This document shows positions 35,971 through 63,984 of a DNA stretch of 64,000 bases, in pieces; position 1 is the first letter of the stretch; each line of letters starts with the position of its first letter. Position numbers and translations under genes: made by a program. This DNA comes from a virus: IMG/VR virus record IMGVR_UViG_3300028173_000003, positions 58,709 to 122,708 of that record; one strand, written 5' to 3'. The notes beneath the pieces were generated by a model. That model ran no database searches. It had not been told where the DNA came from and worked only from the letters and a program-made list of their open reading frames with translations.

Positions 35971-36481
35971 AGACATCAAGGTAGGAGATATATTTCGTGT
36001 CATTAATAATGATAAGACTTTTTCTACGACTCCTTTTCTAATTAATTTTGTCATGGAGACTTCGGCACCTTATTTCGAAATTGGATACATATTGGTTGGT
36101 TCTCATCTTGGCAGATTAAGTCTTAATAAAGAAGATGGTGTACGGTGGCACAGAGTTGCAACATCATATGACAGAGAGAGGAATAGGATGAGTCGTAGTG
36201 TAAAAAAGAATGCCGTTCATTCTTTTACAACTAGAGGTTCGAGAGCAGGAGCACAAAAAAAGTGGAAAAAGGGAAATAACAAGAAAAGTAGGCGTGATGT
36301 AAATGAAATCACCAAACTTGTTTCTTTGTTGACGGAAGAGGGAATCGACGAAGTTGAAGATAAACTTGATCTGCCATTGACAAGAAAGAAAAAGACTGGA
36401 GACATTTGGGATTCTCCTTGTGATGGAAAGACACGAGTATATCAAGATGAAGATTATTACGAAGAGGCACTAAGAAAGTGA
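35960..36481 (+). CDS. VGD domain fused to a basic C-terminal region
   Basis: 173 aa. Residues 1-70 are a normal member (D-I-K-V-G-D-I-F-R-V, tail W-H-R-V-A). Residues 75-115 are strongly basic (R-S-V-K-K-N, K-K-W-K-K-G-N-N-K-K-S), and the end is acidic with D-E-D-Y-Y-E-E. The extension suggests a nucleic-acid- or ribosome-related target for at least this member. Confidence 0.68.
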   Translation: MKYKDIKVGDIFRVINNDKTFSTTPFLINFVMETSAPYFEIGYILVGSHLGRLSLNKEDGVRWHRVATSYDRERNRMSRSVKKNAVHSFTTRGSRAGAQKKWKKGNNKKSRRDVNEITKLVSLLTEEGIDEVEDKLDLPLTRKKKTGDIWDSPCDGKTRVYQDEDYYEEALRK

Positions 36482-37278
36482 TCAAGCTATATCAAATTTG
36501 GGCAGATGGCACCGTTATTTACGATGACGATCATGATACTCCAAAGCCTGACGGTTGTGCCATTGGTATCCCAGACAAGACAATCACTTGGTATCAAAAT
36601 GGCAAACTTCACCGCACTGACGGCCCTGCCATTGAATATGCCAATGGTGACAAATCTTGGTATCAAAATAGCAAACTTTACCGCATTGACGGCCCTGCCA
36701 TTGAATATGCCAATGGTGACAAACATTGGTATCAAAATGGCAAGCGTCACCGCATTGACGGCCCTGCCGTTGAACATGCCAATGGTGACAAATCTTGGTG
36801 TCAAAATGACAAGTGTCACCGCATTGACGGCCCTGCCGTTGAATTTGCCAATGGCGACAAATCTTGGTACATTGATGGCAAGTGTCACCGCATTGACGGC
36901 CCTGCCATTGAACATGCCAATGGTGCCAAATATTGGTATCAAAATGACACACTTCACCGCATTGACGGCCCTGCCGCCATTTATGTCAATGGTACCAAAC
37001 ATTGGTTTCAAAATGGCAAATATCACCGCATTGACGGCCCTGCCCGCGAATATGCCAATGGTGGCAAAGAATGGTATCAAAATAACAAGCGTCACCGCAT
37101 TGACGGCCCTGCCATTGAATCTGCCAATGGTGCCAAATTTTGGTATCAAAATAACAAGCGTCACCGCATTGACGGCCCTGCCATTGAACATGTCAATGGT
37201 GACAAATCTTGGTACATTGATGGGAAGCGCTATTCCGAGCATGACTACAACATCAAAATAAGGAAACTAAATGATTAA
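36478..37278 (+). CDS. DGPA-repeat protein, 9 units, GTG start
   Basis: 266 aa, the largest copy. GTG 36478 overlaps the upstream stop; from there the head I-K-L-Y-Q-I-W-A-D-G matches its relatives. Nine 23-residue units follow, then a cap and the tail K-I-R-K-L-N-D. The near-identical 69-bp units make all six frames look open here, but only this frame keeps the head and cap. Confidence 0.82.
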   Translation: MIKLYQIWADGTVIYDDDHDTPKPDGCAIGIPDKTITWYQNGKLHRTDGPAIEYANGDKSWYQNSKLYRIDGPAIEYANGDKHWYQNGKRHRIDGPAVEHANGDKSWCQNDKCHRIDGPAVEFANGDKSWYIDGKCHRIDGPAIEHANGAKYWYQNDTLHRIDGPAAIYVNGTKHWFQNGKYHRIDGPAREYANGGKEWYQNNKRHRIDGPAIESANGAKFWYQNNKRHRIDGPAIEHVNGDKSWYIDGKRYSEHDYNIKIRKLND

Positions 37279-37678
37279 TAATGAAGTAAAATGTTCTTTT
37301 AACCCAATTCCAAAGAGGAAGAGAGGGAAAGATCAAGAAACAAAAAAAGCAGGAAGGTACTTTCGTTCCATAATCCGTGTAAAAGGACTACAAGACAGCA
37401 AGTGGGCAATTCTTGCAAATCTTGATATTCCAGAGTTTAATAGCCTTCTTGAAGAAGGGCACACAAAGGAAGATATTGTCAAAGCAGGACTAAAATATCT
37501 TAACGAAGAGCAAATTCCAAAAACGAAGGATGGAACTCCAAAAAAGGGTGGCAAACTTCCTTATGGAAAAATCCAATTTTACAAGATGGTTCCAAATGAT
37601 CAGGACAAAATTCAGTGTCTATTGACGACAAATAACAGAAGCAGTTCTCACTTTTGGGGAGAAGGGGTCAAATTGTAA
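37271..37678 (+). CDS. Hypothetical basic protein
   Basis: 135 aa, overlapping the repeat gene by 8 nt. Basic start (K-R-K-R-G-K-D), a folded middle with W-A-I-L-A-N-L-D, and a lysine-rich loop (K-T-K-D-G-T-P-K-K-G-G-K). Unrecognised. Its stop overlaps the next repeat gene by 1 nt. Confidence 0.6.
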   Translation: MINNEVKCSFNPIPKRKRGKDQETKKAGRYFRSIIRVKGLQDSKWAILANLDIPEFNSLLEEGHTKEDIVKAGLKYLNEEQIPKTKDGTPKKGGKLPYGKIQFYKMVPNDQDKIQCLLTTNNRSSSHFWGEGVKL

Positions 37679-38154
37679 TGATTGAGTCTTACCAAATATG
37701 GGCAGATGGCACCGTCATTTATGATGACAATAATGACATTCCAAAGCCTGACGGTTGTGCCATTAGTATCCCAAGCAAGACAATCATTTGGTATCAAAAT
37801 GGCAAACATCACCGCATTGACGGCCCTGCCATTGAACATGCCAATGGTACCAAATATTGGTTTCAAAATGGCAAACTTCACCGCATTGACGGCCCTGCCC
37901 GCGAATATGCCAATGGTGACGAACTTTGGTATCAAAATGGCAAGCGTCACCGCATTGACGGCCCTGCCGTTGAATATGTCAATGGTGACAAACATTGGTA
38001 TCAAAATGGCAAGCGTCACCGCATTGACGGCCCTGCCGTTGAACGTGCCAATGGTGGCAAATATTGGTACATCGAAGGGATCAAATATTCCGAGCATGAC
38101 TACAATATTAAAATCATTAATTTAAGCAAGGGCAAAAATAATGACTCACTATGA
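37678..38154 (+). CDS. DGPA-repeat protein, 4 units
   Basis: 158 aa from ATG 37678. Head [10 protein letters not shown], four units, cap [13 protein letters not shown] (as in 32251), tail L-S-K-G-K-N-N. Overlaps the dnaJ-like gene by 14 nt. Confidence 0.8.
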
Positions 38155-38737: not shown

Positions 38738-39187
38738 ATGATCAAGCCATATCAAATTTGGGTAGATGGCACCGTCATTTACGATGACAATAAAGACATT
38801 CCAAAGCCTGACGGATGTGCCATTAGTATCCCAGACAAGACAATTAAATGGTATCAAAATGACAAACTTCACCGCACTGACGGCCCTGCCATTGAATGTG
38901 CCAATGGTACCAAAATTTGGTATCAAAATGGCAAGTGTCACCGCATTGACGGCCCTGCCATTGAACATGCCAATGGTACCAAATATTGGTATCAAAATGG
39001 CAAGTGTCACCGCATTGACGGCCCTGCCATTGAATATACCAATGGTGCCAAATTTTGGTATCAAAATAACAAGCGTCACCGCATTGACGGCCCTGCCATT
39101 GAATCTGCCAATGGTGACAAATCTTGGTACATTGATGGGAAGCGCTATTCCAAGCATGACTACAAAATTAAGATAAGTAACAAATGA
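38738..39187 (+). CDS. DGPA-repeat protein, 4 units
   Basis: 149 aa, starting directly after the dnaJ-like stop, with GAAAGGAAATAA upstream. Head K-P-Y-Q-I-W-V-D-G (V for A, as in 53803), four units, cap W-Y-I-D-G-K-R-Y-S-K-H. Confidence 0.8.
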   Translation: MIKPYQIWVDGTVIYDDNKDIPKPDGCAISIPDKTIKWYQNDKLHRTDGPAIECANGTKIWYQNGKCHRIDGPAIEHANGTKYWYQNGKCHRIDGPAIEYTNGAKFWYQNNKRHRIDGPAIESANGDKSWYIDGKRYSKHDYKIKISNK

Positions 39188-40941: not shown

Positions 40942-42162
40942 ATGGCTGGTATTAGTTTCAAGGCATTTCATGCAAGCGTTCGTGACGTGATTGAGTTCCC
41001 CGTACTTATCCGTGGTGCTCACGGAATCGGTAAGTCTGAGGTTGTCTATGCGTTTGCCCGAGATACAGCATATGACGAAGAGACGGGGCGACCTGTCGTT
41101 TTGGTTGACGGGATGACTCCGTACTCTGTGGTGGAGCGACGAGCGTCACAAATGACGGAAGGTGACTTGATTGGTATGCCAGATGCCAATCCTGATCTTT
41201 CTCCAATCCTCCAGTACAAGACTACTGCGTGGTGTGCTCCCGACTGGCTCGTCGAGGCTTGTGAGAAGCCTGTCCTACTCTTCCTTGACGAGGTTGACCG
41301 AGCGACGACAGAGGTACGGCAGGGCTTGTTCGAGCTTGCCGACTCTCGGAAGATCTATGGCAAAAAGTTGCACAAAGGAACGATGATCTTTGCAGCAGTC
41401 AATGGCGGGCAGAATGGCGACGCCTATCAGGTGAATGACATGGACCCTGCCGAGCTTGACCGTTGGACCGTGTTTGATGTCGATCCTACCGTTGAGGACT
41501 GGCTCAACTGGGCGAAGGATGATGGAAAGGGTAATCGTCGGATTAGTCCTGTCATCTACGACTTCATCGTTCACAACAACGGACACTTGGAGCACAATGG
41601 GGCTTATGATCCGAAGAATGTGTATCCTTCTCGCCGGTCTTGGGATCGGCTTGACAGGGCACTGAAGTTGAACGGGCTCATTGACGATGTTCTCGAAAAC
41701 AAGGACGCTCATATCGTGCGTGTCGTCAACATCGCCACCGGCTTTGTTGGATTCGAGGCTGCGATGTCCTTCTCGGACCATATCCGAAAGTACAAGTCGG
41801 TTGTCAAGTTCGAGGATATTCTTGATAGGGGCAAGTTCGAGTTGACCAAGGATTTCCTCTTGAACGATCACTTGGCGATGATTGACAAGATGGATGCGGC
41901 CAAAGTCTTCGAGAGTAACATCCCCGAGGCTCGGATGAAGAACTTGTGCGAGTACTTTGTCAGCCTTCCTTCCGAGATCGGAATGAAGCTCACCGACTTG
42001 TTGATGGCCAAGGATACCTTGGATGTCAGCGGGAAGGATGGGGATGGAAACATTCGGAGGTTCATGAACACCGAGACGAGCAAGGGGCTTACCCACAAGA
42101 TCTTCGTCGAAGTGCTCCTTGGAGAACAGTCCAAGAAGGAGAATGAAGATAAGAGCGAGTAG
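40942..42162 (+). CDS. MoxR-type AAA+ ATPase
   Basis: 406 aa from ATG 40942 (AGGAAG upstream; a TTG at 40912 is rejected). Walker A G25-A-H-G-I-G-K31-S, Walker B L-L-F-L-D-E-V-D, sensor region A-A-V-N-G-G. MoxR ATPases act with VWA-domain proteins as chaperones that activate or remodel complexes; a VWA partner is at 44602. Codons are visibly richer in G/C than neighbouring genes (many GAG, CTC, GTC), suggesting high expression or a different origin. A strong hairpin follows. Confidence 0.85.
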   Translation: MAGISFKAFHASVRDVIEFPVLIRGAHGIGKSEVVYAFARDTAYDEETGRPVVLVDGMTPYSVVERRASQMTEGDLIGMPDANPDLSPILQYKTTAWCAPDWLVEACEKPVLLFLDEVDRATTEVRQGLFELADSRKIYGKKLHKGTMIFAAVNGGQNGDAYQVNDMDPAELDRWTVFDVDPTVEDWLNWAKDDGKGNRRISPVIYDFIVHNNGHLEHNGAYDPKNVYPSRRSWDRLDRALKLNGLIDDVLENKDAHIVRVVNIATGFVGFEAAMSFSDHIRKYKSVVKFEDILDRGKFELTKDFLLNDHLAMIDKMDAAKVFESNIPEARMKNLCEYFVSLPSEIGMKLTDLLMAKDTLDVSGKDGDGNIRRFMNTETSKGLTHKIFVEVLLGEQSKKENEDKSE

Positions 42163-44601: not shown

Positions 44602-45852
44602 ATGGCTTACGATCTTCAGAAAAGCATTTACTCTTTACTTAGGGACCAGCCCTTTTTTAGTGTCTTCTCTCGCATGGTCGAGAAGAAGGCAACCAAAGGG
44701 ATCCCAACGGCAGGAGTACGAGTAACTAATGATGGTTATTTCGAGATGGCATACAATCCCGACTTCTTTGAGAACATTGGGGGAGAAGGGGTTAGTGAGG
44801 AAGTTCGTGATCGATATCGCAAGGGCGTTTTGATGCACGAATTCTATCACATCATTCTTGGTCACATTACAACTCGCAGGCCAGGAGAGAAGGATGATGC
44901 TCATACTGCCAAGTTGTGGAATTATGCCACAGACATGGCAATCAACTCCCACATCCCTAATGAGCTACCTGATTTTGCGCTTCTTCCTGGGCGTGGTCCG
45001 TTTGCGGACTTCCCAACTATGCAAAGTTCCGAGTTCTACTACAACAAGATTCGAGAGATGTCAGACGAAGAGCAGAAGAACAAGATGGGAGAAGGTGAAG
45101 AAGGCCAGATGGACGATCATGGCGAGTGGGGAGAAGGAAATGGGAATGGAGAAGGAGAAGGAAAAGAAGGTAATGGGCCTGTTACTGACGGGAGCACTTT
45201 GAAGGAAATGGCAGAAAATCGCCTGAAGGAGATGTTGAAGAAGTCCACTCAGGAAGTATCACAGTCTTCGCAGGGTTGGGGAAATATCAGTCAGGAAATC
45301 CAGAAGCACATTATGGATATGATTCGTCCTGCCGTTGTTGATTGGGCTCGCTATCTTCGATACTTTGTCAAGAAGTCGCAAAGGACAAGTAGGCGAAGCA
45401 CTGTAAGGCGATTGAGTAGGCGAACGCCTTACATCCATCCTGGAAAGGTCGTCAAGCGACAGGCAAAGATCGCTGTTAGCATTGATCAGTCTGGCTCTGT
45501 TGATGATCTGTTGCTTGCCAAGTTCTTCAATGAACTCAACGGCTTGGCAGAACACGCAGACTTCACCGTAGTTCCTTTCGATCATGTTGTCCAGACGGAT
45601 GAGGTTTTTGAGTGGAAGCAGGGGAAAAAGATGATGCCGAAGCGCGTTAGTTGTGGAGGTACAGATTTTGACGCTCCTACAGATTATGTCAATGGTCTTG
45701 TCTTTGATGGGCATATCGTCTTGACAGATATGTATGCGCCTAAGCCTGGGCCGTCAAAATGTCAGAGAATGTGGATTGTACCAATGGAACAGAAGGAGCG
45801 TCCTTTCTTTGATACCAATGAAGTAAAGATTTATATTCCACACGATATGTAG
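44602..45852 (+). CDS. Putative metallopeptidase with VWA-like domain (DUF2201 type)
   Basis: 416 aa. N-terminal zinc motif H79-E-F-Y-H83 followed by L-G-H88; a Gly/Glu/Asn-rich linker at about 165-200; C-terminal VWA domain with the MIDAS start D295-Q-S-G-S299 and a later T-D. This layout is that of VWA-like metallopeptidase proteins paired with MoxR ATPases, matching the ATPase at 40942. Both share the higher-GC codon style. The target is unknown; phage assembly or host-complex remodelling is possible. Confidence 0.82.
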   Translation: MAYDLQKSIYSLLRDQPFFSVFSRMVEKKATKGIPTAGVRVTNDGYFEMAYNPDFFENIGGEGVSEEVRDRYRKGVLMHEFYHIILGHITTRRPGEKDDAHTAKLWNYATDMAINSHIPNELPDFALLPGRGPFADFPTMQSSEFYYNKIREMSDEEQKNKMGEGEEGQMDDHGEWGEGNGNGEGEGKEGNGPVTDGSTLKEMAENRLKEMLKKSTQEVSQSSQGWGNISQEIQKHIMDMIRPAVVDWARYLRYFVKKSQRTSRRSTVRRLSRRTPYIHPGKVVKRQAKIAVSIDQSGSVDDLLLAKFFNELNGLAEHADFTVVPFDHVVQTDEVFEWKQGKKMMPKRVSCGGTDFDAPTDYVNGLVFDGHIVLTDMYAPKPGPSKCQRMWIVPMEQKERPFFDTNEVKIYIPHDM

Positions 45853-52897: not shown

Positions 52898-53803
52898 ATG
52901 GGATACATGCATATTGACAATCTTGAGAAGCCGAGGGCACAAAGGATTTTAGACTTTAAAGAGGTTTACGTAGTTGAGAAAATTCACGGCACGAGTTCAA
53001 ATTTATCCTTTAAAATCAATGAGTTAGGAGAAGAAGAATTGAGGTTCTTTTCTGGAGGGATGAGTCATCAACTCTTCATTAACATTTTTGATCAGGATGC
53101 TCTTCTTGCCAATTTCCGCAATCTTGGTGTGCAAGCGATTACCATCTATGGCGAAGCGTATGGCGGAAGTATGCAAAAGATGTCGCATTCATATGGCAAG
53201 GAGGCCAAGTTCATTGCATTTGATGTCAAAATTGTTGATCATTGGCTCGATTTCGACAAGGCCCATAAACTAGTGACAGACGACATGAATCTTGAATTCG
53301 TATGGTTTACCAAGTCGAGTACAGACATTGAAGAGTTGATCAAGTGGCGTAATCAGGAATGTCAGCAGGCAATCCGTAATGGTATGGGTCACGGGCATAA
53401 GAGTGAAGGGATCGTAATTCGACCATTGTGGGAATGTGCTACCAACAATGGAAAGCGAATGCTTGTCAAGTTCAAGAATGCCGATTTCCAAGAAAGAAAG
53501 AACCCTCCATCGGTTGAGGATATGCTCAAGAAAGAAGAGAAGCTCAAAGTTCTTGCAGATGCGAGAAAGATTGCAGATGAGTGGGTAACAGAAATGAGGC
53601 TCACTCACGTACTTGACAAGATTGTGGGTGAAATTGATATGACTCGTACTGGCGAAATTATCAAGGCAATGCAAGAAGATGTTCTCCGAGAGGCAGAGGG
53701 AGAAATTATTGTATCAAAGAATACGTTAGGGCAGATTGCCGCAACAACGGCAAAGATGCTCAAGCGTCGATTGAATGACAATTTGATGAATAAAGAAAGA
53801 TAA
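52898..53803 (+). CDS. Rnl2-type RNA ligase
   Basis: 301 aa (T4 Rnl2 is 334). Nucleotidyltransferase motifs: I E-K28-I-H-G, III G-E-A-Y-G-G, IV E-G-I-V-I-R-P, V V-K-F-K. K28 should carry AMP. The C-terminal 90 residues are helical, as in Rnl2. It seals nicks in RNA duplexes or mends cut RNAs. A second, Rnl1-type ligase is at 56459. Confidence 0.88.
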   Translation: MGYMHIDNLEKPRAQRILDFKEVYVVEKIHGTSSNLSFKINELGEEELRFFSGGMSHQLFINIFDQDALLANFRNLGVQAITIYGEAYGGSMQKMSHSYGKEAKFIAFDVKIVDHWLDFDKAHKLVTDDMNLEFVWFTKSSTDIEELIKWRNQECQQAIRNGMGHGHKSEGIVIRPLWECATNNGKRMLVKFKNADFQERKNPPSVEDMLKKEEKLKVLADARKIADEWVTEMRLTHVLDKIVGEIDMTRTGEIIKAMQEDVLREAEGEIIVSKNTLGQIAATTAKMLKRRLNDNLMNKER

Positions 53804-54189
53804 TGATCAAGCCATATCAAATTTGGGTAGATGGCACCGTTATTTACGATGACGATTATGATACTCCAAAGCCTGACGGATGTGCCATTAGTATCCCAGA
53901 CAAGACAATTAAATGGTATCAAAATGGCAAACTTCACCGCATTGACGGCCCTGCCATCGAATATGCCGATGGTGGCAAATCTTGGTATCAAAATGGCAAA
54001 CATCACCGCATTGACGGCCCTGCCATTGAATATGTCAATGGTGACAAATGTTGGTATCAAAATGGCAAGTGTCACCGCATTGGCGGCCCTGCTCTTGAAT
54101 ATATTGATAGTTACAAATTTTGGTATATTGATGGTATCAAATATTCCGAGCAAGACTATAGTATTGAAATTGCTAGGAGAAGTAAATGA
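53803..54189 (+). CDS. DGPA-repeat protein, 3 units
   Basis: 128 aa, sharing one base with the ligase stop. Head K-P-Y-Q-I-W-V-D-G, three units (the last decayed: I-G-G-P-A-L-E-Y-I-D-S), cap W-Y-I-D-G-I-K-Y. Overlaps the next gene by 4 nt. Confidence 0.78.
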   Translation: MIKPYQIWVDGTVIYDDDYDTPKPDGCAISIPDKTIKWYQNGKLHRIDGPAIEYADGGKSWYQNGKHHRIDGPAIEYVNGDKCWYQNGKCHRIGGPALEYIDSYKFWYIDGIKYSEQDYSIEIARRSK

Positions 54190-59883: not shown

Positions 59884-60066
59884 ATGTTTGTACTTCAAAA
59901 TAGGCAAGATGGTCTTTACCTTGCACAGAATTATTGTGGTTGGACCGAAGACCTCAATTGTGCCAAGATTTTCGATACTGTCAAAGATGCAGGACTAAGG
60001 CGTGGAGAGGATTTTACCCTTGAGATCTTTTCTGTCAAGATCGAGAAGGTCAAGCAAGTCGGTTAA
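59884..60066 (+). CDS. Small hypothetical protein
   Basis: 60 aa from ATG 59884, 5 nt after AAAGGAG (ATG 59881 is too close). F-V-L-Q-N-R-Q-D-G-L-Y-L, W-T-E-D-L-N-C-A-K-I-F, F-T-L-E-I-F-S-V-K-I. Single-gene unit; family unknown. Confidence 0.6.
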   Translation: MFVLQNRQDGLYLAQNYCGWTEDLNCAKIFDTVKDAGLRRGEDFTLEIFSVKIEKVKQVG

Positions 60067-60075
60067 ACTTTTTCG

Positions 60076-60104
60076 TTGACAGGGCCTTCGGGCTGTGGTA
60101 CGAT
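60076..60104 (+). promoter_or_regulatory. Tandem promoter 1 before the GC-rich gene
   Basis: TTGACA, 17 nt (GGGCCTTCGGGCTGTGG), TACGAT. Confidence 0.8.
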
Positions 60105-60153
60105 GTGCTTGTCCTGGTGAGGGAAGGCCGTTGAAACGACGAAAACTTTTTCG

Positions 60154-60182
60154 TTGACAGGGCCTTCGGGCTGTGGTACGAT
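60154..60182 (+). promoter_or_regulatory. Tandem promoter 2
   Basis: Same hexamers and spacer as promoter 1, 78 bp downstream. Confidence 0.8.
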
Positions 60183-60231
60183 GTACTTGTCCTGGTGAGG
60201 GAAGGTCGTTGAAACGATGAAAACTTTCTCC

Positions 60232-60260
60232 TTGACAGGGCGGTAGGTTCGTGGTACTAT
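60232..60260 (+). promoter_or_regulatory. Tandem promoter 3
   Basis: TTGACA, 17 nt (GGGCGGTAGGTTCGTGG), TACTAT, again 78 bp after the previous one. Confidence 0.8.
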
Positions 60261-60306
60261 GTTCTTGGAAGTTAGGGGCCGTCAAAGAGGCGGTTGATTT
60301 TTCCCC

Positions 60307-60335
60307 TTGACAAGCGGCCCTGTTTGATGTAGAAT
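60307..60335 (+). promoter_or_regulatory. Tandem promoter 4
   Basis: TTGACA, 17 nt, TAGAAT, 75 bp after promoter 3. The leader to ATG 60408 is about 65 nt and carries TTGGAGG. Confidence 0.78.
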
Positions 60336-60407
60336 GGGTCATGAAGTTGGTGGAGCGGGTGCTTTGCCGACACGAAATGTTCGTTTAGGTTCTTTGGAGG
60401 TTCTGTT

Positions 60408-60893
60408 ATGACGTTTACTGGTTTTGATTCGGTCAAGGCGTTTCGTGAGGCTCACACCACTGCCGAGGGTACTTTCTTCAATAAGGAGGATTTCGCCGCT
60501 CGCAAGGTTGCGCTCGGTCGCAAGGTTTTTGCGGATCGGTTCTTCATGTCGAGCGTTCCTGTTGATGTGTCGCGAGAAGAGGCGGGTGGGAATCGTCTGT
60601 TTACCCTGCTTTTCATCGAGGATGACCTTTCGGTGACTGTCCTCGGTACGCCCGATGGCCTGGAGAGTCGCTATAAGGCGAACAAGGGCAAGGATCTGGC
60701 GATTAAGGCGTTCTCGAAGGATGGCACGCTGGATCGCTTCGTCGAGACGGATGCGGATTCCGACCTTGACGTGGAGGTCGAGCTTGAGGCGGATTCCACC
60801 GATGGCGAGCCTGTCGAGATTCTCGACGCTGACGATGCTATCTCGGAGTTCTCGGATGAGGTCGCGGAGCAGATCACCAATCTGAACGGTTAG
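60408..60893 (+). CDS. GC-rich hypothetical protein, probably very highly expressed
   Basis: 161 aa. N-terminal part F-D-S-V-K-A-F-R-E-A-H, a folded core with L-F-T-L-L-F-I-E-D-D, then an acidic C-terminal third (D-A-D-S-D-L-D-V-E-V-E-L-E). Third codon positions are mostly G or C, unlike nearly every other gene here. Four tandem promoters and a strong ribosome site precede it. It may be an abundant early protein or a DNA-mimic type inhibitor; function is not recognisable. Confidence 0.75.
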   Translation: MTFTGFDSVKAFREAHTTAEGTFFNKEDFAARKVALGRKVFADRFFMSSVPVDVSREEAGGNRLFTLLFIEDDLSVTVLGTPDGLESRYKANKGKDLAIKAFSKDGTLDRFVETDADSDLDVEVELEADSTDGEPVEILDADDAISEFSDEVAEQITNLNG

Positions 60894-60902
60894 TATCTGA
60901 CC

Positions 60903-60926
60903 TGGGCATTGTCGCTAAACTGCCCA
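60903..60926 (+). terminator. Hairpin after the GC-rich gene
   Basis: TGGGCA (60903-60908) pairs with TGCCCA (60921-60926). No T run follows, so it may be an attenuator or a 3' end stem. The same stem sequence recurs at 61318, there with a T run. Confidence 0.4.
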
Positions 60927-61560
60927 TCATCGACTGTTGACCTGCATTATTATTTAGGGGTTAGATTGTGGACAGTCTTGGTTTAGTTTAGACCTCAAAC
61001 AAGTCTCAAAACTGTTTGAAATTGTTTGTAGTATCAATTTGTGTCGTGGTTATAAAGGTTGACGAAAAATGCATTGTTCACTATGTAATAGATAGACCTA
61101 AGTAAGTCCTCTTAAACTACTTCGTCCATGTGACGTTAAATGGGTCAAGAGCCCCATTGGTTATTACGGTCAAAGATCTCCGATCAACAATCTTCACTCT
61201 ATTGACCTTTCGCGCTTTTGATAAAGGCATTAATAATTACTAGGCTTAGGTAGGATTATGGAACCATTTCGTTAGCTACTGCAAGTTTAATTTTAATTTT
61301 GAGATGCTGATTATGCCTGGGCAAGCTTTAACTGCCCATTTTTATTGCTGGTTAGGGAAATGCCACATCCCGCCTGGGGCAACATTTCAGGAGATAGCTG
61401 GTTGGATTCCAGCACCAGCAACTTCATTCATATTGGGTATTTTTTGCTTTTGGGGTTCAATTCCCCTTTGGCTCGTGGAGAGCCAGTCTGAACCTAGAAT
61501 GACAAGTGATAATATAGAGTTGGCCGCTCGAAGAACTGCATAATGTCTAGAAGCAGTTTA
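60927..61560 (+). ncRNA. Long stretch without a convincing gene; candidate structured RNA
   Basis: About 630 nt with no well-supported frame in a genome that otherwise has hardly any gaps. Local stems include GACTGT/ACAGTC (60932/60972), CAAACA/TGTTTG (60996/61013), AATGGG/CCCATT near 61140, GGTCAA/TTGACC (near 61168/61203), GCTGGT/ACCAGC near 61400, GGGG-TTCAATT-CCCC (61452-61466, T-loop-like), GGCTC/GAGCC and ACTGC/GCAGT. It lies downstream of four promoters. A decayed region is the alternative. Confidence 0.35.
61318..61343 (+). terminator. Rho-independent-type terminator
   Basis: TGGGCA, 9-nt loop, TGCCCA, then TTTTTATT. Probably the stop of the strong tandem-promoter unit. Confidence 0.6.
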
Positions 61561-63564: not shown

Positions 63565-63591
63565 TAACAGATAGAAGAGCAAGAGGCAATG

Positions 63592-63984
63592 ATGGCGAAT
63601 TTCGAGACATATGAAGTGAGAGTGTATGCCAATGGTACCAAATGTTGGTATCAAAATGGCAATTGTCACCGCATTGACGGCCCTGCCGTTGAATGTGCCA
63701 GTGGTGACAAATTTTGGTATCAAAATGGCGAGTATCACCGCATTGACGGCCCTGCCATTGAATATATCAATGGTACCAAAGTTTGGTATCAAAATGGCAA
63801 GTTTCACCGCATTGACGGCCCTGCCATTGAATATGTCAATGGTGACAAATATTGGTATCTTGATGGAGAATGCTATACCGAGCATGACTATAACACCGAG
63901 ATTGCCAAGCGAAATGCCAATACTTGCGAAGATCGCCTTGTCGAGATTGACGGTATCAAGTACAAGCTGATCAAGGCTTGCTAA
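63592..63984 (+). CDS. DGPA-repeat protein, 3 units, different head
   Basis: 130 aa from ATG 63592 (ATG 63589 also possible). The usual Y-Q-I-W-A-D-G head is replaced by a short F-E-T-Y-E-V-R-V-Y-A-N-G-T; three units and cap W-Y-L-D-G follow, then a unique tail E-D-R-L-V-E-I-D-G-I-K-Y-K. Units 1-2 are identical in DNA to those of 33641. The 16 nt after it look like the start of another promoter region. Confidence 0.78.
   Translation: MANFETYEVRVYANGTKCWYQNGNCHRIDGPAVECASGDKFWYQNGEYHRIDGPAIEYINGTKVWYQNGKFHRIDGPAIEYVNGDKYWYLDGECYTEHDYNTEIAKRNANTCEDRLVEIDGIKYKLIKAC
63666..63780 (+). repeat. 115-bp block identical to 33775-33889
   Basis: Partner of the block in the repeat gene at 33641; differing bases flank it on both sides. 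Confidence 0.9.

Follow-up and report, generated by a model that had tools for sequence, protein, structure and literature searches.

The stretch of DNA that we analysed, which we call the window, makes up the final 64 kb of a 122,708-bp virus contig from IMG/VR, and near its end four promoters of the sigma-70 type (TTGACA-N17-TANNNT) follow one another ahead of a single open reading frame that encodes a protein of 161 amino acids (Table 1). All four have the same -35 hexamer and a 17-bp spacer, and three have a TGn before the -10. Their number and their spacing of 78, 78 and 75 bp are as a preliminary description of this DNA had stated. At least three near-consensus promoters in the same direction (four, to be exact) thereby precede one gene. 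The first two units are near-identical 78-bp direct repeats, and because of this, part of the array reads as the outcome of tandem duplication.

Table 1. Features of the promoter array and of the gene behind it (positions are those of the window)
Feature	Position	Strand	Remarks
Promoter unit 1 (P1)	60065..60142	+	-35 TTGACA 60076-60081, TGn 60096-60098, -10 TACGAT 60099-60104, plus leader; 96% identical to unit 2
Promoter unit 2 (P2)	60143..60220	+	-35 TTGACA 60154-60159, -10 TACGAT 60177-60182 with TGn; apparent tandem duplicate of unit 1
Promoter unit 3 (P3)	60221..60298	+	-35 TTGACA 60232-60237, -10 TACTAT 60255-60260 with TGn; first 47 nt 79% identical to unit 1
Weak terminator-like hairpin between P3 and P4	60277..60295	+	7 pairs, 4 of them G-C, then GATTTTTCCC; role uncertain
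Promoter 4 (P4)	60307..60335	+	-35 TTGACA 60307-60312, -10 TAGAAT 60330-60335, no TGn
11-bp stem-loop near expected 5' end of P4 transcript	60346..60371	+	predicted; part of the MFE fold, z -1.5
Shine-Dalgarno GGAGG	60396..60400	+	7 nt ahead of the ATG (ideal spacing); direct sequence reading
161-aa orphan protein	60408..60893	+	pI 4.2; third codon positions nearly A-free
Hairpin just 3' of the gene (TGGGCA/TGCCCA)	60903..60926	+	no U-run; not stronger than shuffles, z -0.6

What kind of virus carries this arrangement? The window encodes a tail sheath, a baseplate hub protein, a UvsX-like recombinase, a gp32-type single-stranded DNA-binding protein (SSB), an ATP-dependent DNA ligase, a polymerase of the DNA polymerase III alpha type, a GroEL-like chaperonin and two RNA ligases, and the closest relatives of the RNA ligases (36-39% identical) lie in uncultured phages of 634-642 kb. 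From this gene content and these ligases, the contig, which is probably incomplete, belongs to a large tailed phage resembling the T4 type. The phage is AT-rich. Megablast of the final 8 kb of the window against phage records gave no match, and a scan of IMG/VR with the promoter sequences did not find close relatives. The phage encodes tRNAs for Arg(TCT), Ile(TAT), Leu(CAA), Leu(TAG) and Pro(TGG); a further ARAGORN call at 61346-61422, a tRNA-Val with the unusual anticodon AAC, is not found by the Rfam tRNA model and is probably false or degenerate. Just ahead of the tRNA cluster, from the end of the 161-aa gene to the next promoter (60894-61560), about 650 bp hold no convincing reading frame and match no Rfam family. 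Elsewhere in the window, five paralogous proteins built of WYQNGxxHRxDGPAxEYxNG repeats (36478-37278, 37654-38154, 38738-39187, 53803-54189 and 63589-63984) have genes that are low in both A and G at third positions.

The promoters of the array belong to a class that the phage uses widely. A strict search of the whole contig for TTGACN-17-TANNNT returned 43 sites on the plus strand and 5 on the minus strand, where a second-order Markov model predicts 2.5, and members of the class precede genes all along the right part of the window. Its consensus, AAATTTTcCCCTTGACA...TGTGGTAt.AT, includes a pyrimidine-rich tract ahead of the -35 (T-tracts are common in the promoters of this phage) and often a TGn before the -10. 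Four such sites within 260 bp occur only at the array; every other 260-bp stretch of the contig has at most two, and simulated sequences never had more. Near-identical copies of promoter plus leader are also dispersed in the early region, in the pairs 44126/44543, 55851/57894, 59548/59794 and 60076/60154 (80-93% identity); over 75 nt, the first three of these pairs and a further one, 61578/63159, are 69-84% identical. We considered a general cassette of promoter and stem-loop and rejected it, as 33 sites showed no enrichment of hairpins ahead of the promoters (mean z 0.1).

The gene itself stands apart in its codons. With a GC content of 0.56 and a GC3 of 0.66, it has the highest GC3 of the contig's 183 open reading frames (mean 0.34, sd 0.066). 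The G/C-rich codons of the preliminary description are thus real, and they can be described more sharply: the gene is nearly free of A at synonymous positions, with T at background. Third-position A is 0.01 against a background of 0.33, and the 85 fourfold sites divide into A1/C26/G32/T26 where the background is A.44/C.12/G.11/T.33, a skew whose nominal P of 3.5e-20 is overstated since it takes the sites to be independent and the gene was chosen for being an outlier. A is common at the first and second codon positions (35/161 and 53/161), and the depletion is therefore a synonymous-site effect. The codons AGA, ATA, TTG, CTA, CCA and TTA are not used at all, the lowest use among 103 genes, and for five of these six the phage carries its own tRNAs.

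Could such a gene simply have been acquired of late from a GC-rich genome, with codons that reflect its origin and nothing else, and with promoters that were added or captured later? Its GC3 rank, the lack of a homologue among phage records and the recent look of the tandem duplication all speak for this idea. Import from a GC-rich genome is, however, expected to lower A and T together at third positions, whereas a gene that shuns the codons read by U34 tRNAs should lose A alone, since T-ending and C-ending codons share a tRNA. Here, A is nearly gone and T has stayed where it was (26/85, or 0.31 against 0.33). In addition, searches of IMG/VR, plasmids and GTDB species genomes, at the sensitivity that we used, brought up no relative, and a similar codon pattern is conserved in a family of other phages whose proteins are 44-53% identical. 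We consider import unlikely, although it is the best of the alternatives; because A is lost, T is kept and the rare codons that the phage's own tRNAs read are avoided, the pattern fits adaptation to the host's tRNA pool better.

Abundance of the product does not by itself explain the effect, as the genes for tail sheath, GroEL-like chaperonin and gp32-type SSB have phage-like codons (third-position A of.31,.40 and.29). Genes directly behind a promoter of the class are mildly poor in third-position A even when the 161-aa gene is left out (Mann-Whitney p 0.02), and the other two high-GC3 genes, for a MoxR-like ATPase (0.11) and a vWA/metallopeptidase protein (0.19), each follow such a promoter. 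This favours a codon effect that tracks early timing, on few genes only. Codon choice can differ between early and late phage genes (PMC5683454). The MoxR-like AAA ATPase and the DUF2201 metallopeptidase-vWA protein, both with raised GC3, lie at 40942-42162 and 44602-45852, and a pair of this type has been proposed to function in the assembly of jumbo-phage virions (PMC7824862). In relatives, too, the MoxR genes are A-poor (third-position A of.06-.17 against means of.21-.32; L005-L009 and L011), and one relative's contig (G005:C1:16299-17132) has a 277-aa open reading frame, sigma-factor-like by eye, with a GC3 of 0.75 against a mean of 0.45.

The GGAGG ahead of the gene is a strong, ideally spaced ribosome-binding site, and the predicted 11-bp stem-loop is placed near the 5' end of the P4 transcript by a start deduced from the position of the -10; it is a possible stabiliser of the mRNA. 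The hairpin between P3 and P4 could make read-through from P1, P2 and P3 less efficient. One might go further and suppose that P1-P3 are tandem small-RNA or attenuator units, which make short RNAs that stop before the next promoter and leave P4 alone to drive the gene. That hairpin, with its T5, a weaker terminator-like one at 60129-60141 and a stretch between P2 and P3 that folds better than shuffles (z -3.1) speak for such units, but the stems are short, the T-tract is general to this phage's promoters, and hairpins ahead of promoters show no general enrichment here. We rate this possibility as improbable, a shade below import.

The protein is an orphan with two unlike parts. Residues 1-112 have a net charge of 0, and the 49 residues of the tail (113-161) have a net charge of -19, which bears out the acidic tail that had been reported for it. 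No credible homologue was found in PHROGs, Pfam, NCBIfam, PDB sequences or tblastn of INPHARED and PLSDB; in scans of IMG/VR and of GTDB species genomes at the sensitivity used; in 13 records reached through related loci; or with phmmer against all open reading frames of 12 contigs. Single-sequence structure models were of low confidence (pLDDT 35 for the full length and 42 for the N-terminal part), a quality that does not allow a fold search.

A DNA-mimic or host-shutoff protein like T7 Ocr comes to mind, given the pI, the charge of the tail and strong stacked early promoters like those ahead of T7's first early genes. The acid excess is confined to residues 113-161, though, whereas a mimic of the Ocr type needs acidity over its entire surface, and there is neither homology nor a reliable structure model. 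The 36 acidic residues are accompanied by 17 basic ones, where the 116 residues of Ocr include 34 acidic and 6 basic ones (PMC4872106), so that acidity across the whole protein with few basic residues is not what we see, and we think this identity very doubtful. The same low standing goes to a single-stranded DNA-binding protein with a beta-rich domain and an acidic C-terminal tail (as in gp32, gp2.5 and SSB), which would suit the neutral body, the acidic tail and the at least five strands that the low-confidence models place in the body, but a gp32-type SSB is already encoded on the contig, no SSB-family sequence matches the protein, and at pLDDT 35-42 the strands are unreliable.

How new is the arrangement? 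In T7, the tandem early promoters A1, A2 and A3 drive gene 0.3 (Ocr), and the two phages share closely stacked, strong promoters for the host polymerase before a small acidic early protein. They differ in that our array has four promoters and not three, which stand 75-78 bp apart and in part duplicate one another almost exactly, and in that the protein is unrelated to Ocr, acidic in its tail only and found in the context of a large phage. The PeSL mobile regulatory cassettes of T4-type phages, which Arbiol et al. reportedly described in 2010, couple a strong promoter to a stem-loop terminator; the dispersed, near-identical copies of promoter plus leader are like them, but a general stem-loop partner is missing, with one weak candidate after P3. 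The early promoters of T4 are "uber" promoters with UP, -35, TGn and -10 elements (PMC2988021). At the level of their elements, ours resemble them in their near-consensus -35, TGn and -10, their conserved flanks and their recurrence before many early-region genes, and are unlike them in standing four in tandem before one gene and in the pyrimidine-rich tract ahead of the -35.

Do other phages place such arrays before A-poor genes? A scan of IMG/VR for three strict tandem promoters returned 114 contigs, among which a recurring group with related products (MREDRHLTYNPYGG and similar) is one that we take to be T7-like. Over 92 open reading frames downstream of such arrays there was no mean loss of third-position A, and with a stricter choice of gene, 22 arrays with a clear downstream gene included 4 that are depleted and 5 that are enriched, and we reject the idea that arrays are a general mark of A-poor genes. 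Even so, at least two other large phages also combine a promoter array with A-poor codons. A 207-kb contig (L070:4652-5589) has seven strict sigma-70 promoters, spaced 74-91 bp, before an orphan gene for a 119-aa product, with a third-position A of 0.07 against 0.28; the product has no relative in IMG/VR beyond itself. In a second case, the L139 family, all 11 loci (L178-L188) are depleted of third-position A (0.01-0.15 against 0.13-0.26), and each has one to three strict promoters; the proteins are small (about 110 aa), winged-helix-like by eye and encoded in large phage contigs. Because the depletion is conserved across proteins that are 44-53% identical, it argues for selection in this family. 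The products of L070, L139 and L099 have no match in PHROGs. Our locus is like the L070 and L139-family arrays in its stacked sigma-70 promoters, its small orphan product and a third-position A within 0.01-0.15, and unlike them in its protein, which is unrelated and has an acidic tail that theirs lack.

We think it likely, because of the four host-type promoters, the predicted 5' stem-loop, the GGAGG at ideal spacing and the codons that shun A-ending triplets, that the gene is immediate-early and very highly expressed; its product would then be synthesised rapidly and abundantly as infection begins. The comparable arrays ahead of small A-poor genes in other large phages point the same way. Of the preliminary interpretation, the abundant early product thus stands as a reading of these signals, and the DNA-mimic or host-shutoff role finds no support, since the protein is acidic in its tail only and no homologue connects it with host shutoff. 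All four promoters would be fired by the host RNA polymerase on entry, the 5' stem-loop would slow mRNA decay, and the codons would suit the tRNA pool of the host, so that the message could be translated at full speed before the phage tRNAs (for AGA, ATA, TTG, CTA, CCA and others) build up. Counting against this high-output reading are the missing TGn of P4, the terminator-like hairpin between P3 and P4, and arrays and A-poor codons that are not always paired.

A protein made in this way would act stoichiometrically. What might it do? In our most likely conjecture, a neutral N-terminal domain would bind a host factor or nucleic acid, with the acidic tail modulating. A host-directed inhibitor or anti-defence protein is a tentative guess, on which we would not wager at even terms, and a DNA- or RNA-coating role is more doubtful still.

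Perhaps, too, the 161-aa protein is one example of a strategy shared by unrelated large phages, in which stacked host promoters drive a small, lineage-specific "first-strike" protein whose gene has been cleared of A-ending codons. Its synthesis would then not depend on those U34 tRNAs that the host has in short supply or that its tRNA-targeting defences cleave. We hold this wider idea to be a long shot. Tandem arrays are a known phage device, and it is the orphan product with its A-free codons that deserves follow-up.

If the high-output reading is true, the sequence of an uncultured phage can by itself, through stacked promoters together with A-free codons, reveal which early protein is made in the largest amount. 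Proteins of this kind often serve host takeover and lack homologues, so that a search that is free of homology would help to find them. The contrast of this gene with the late and replication genes would also directly test whether phage tRNAs serve the late genes while the early genes live off the tRNA pool of the host.
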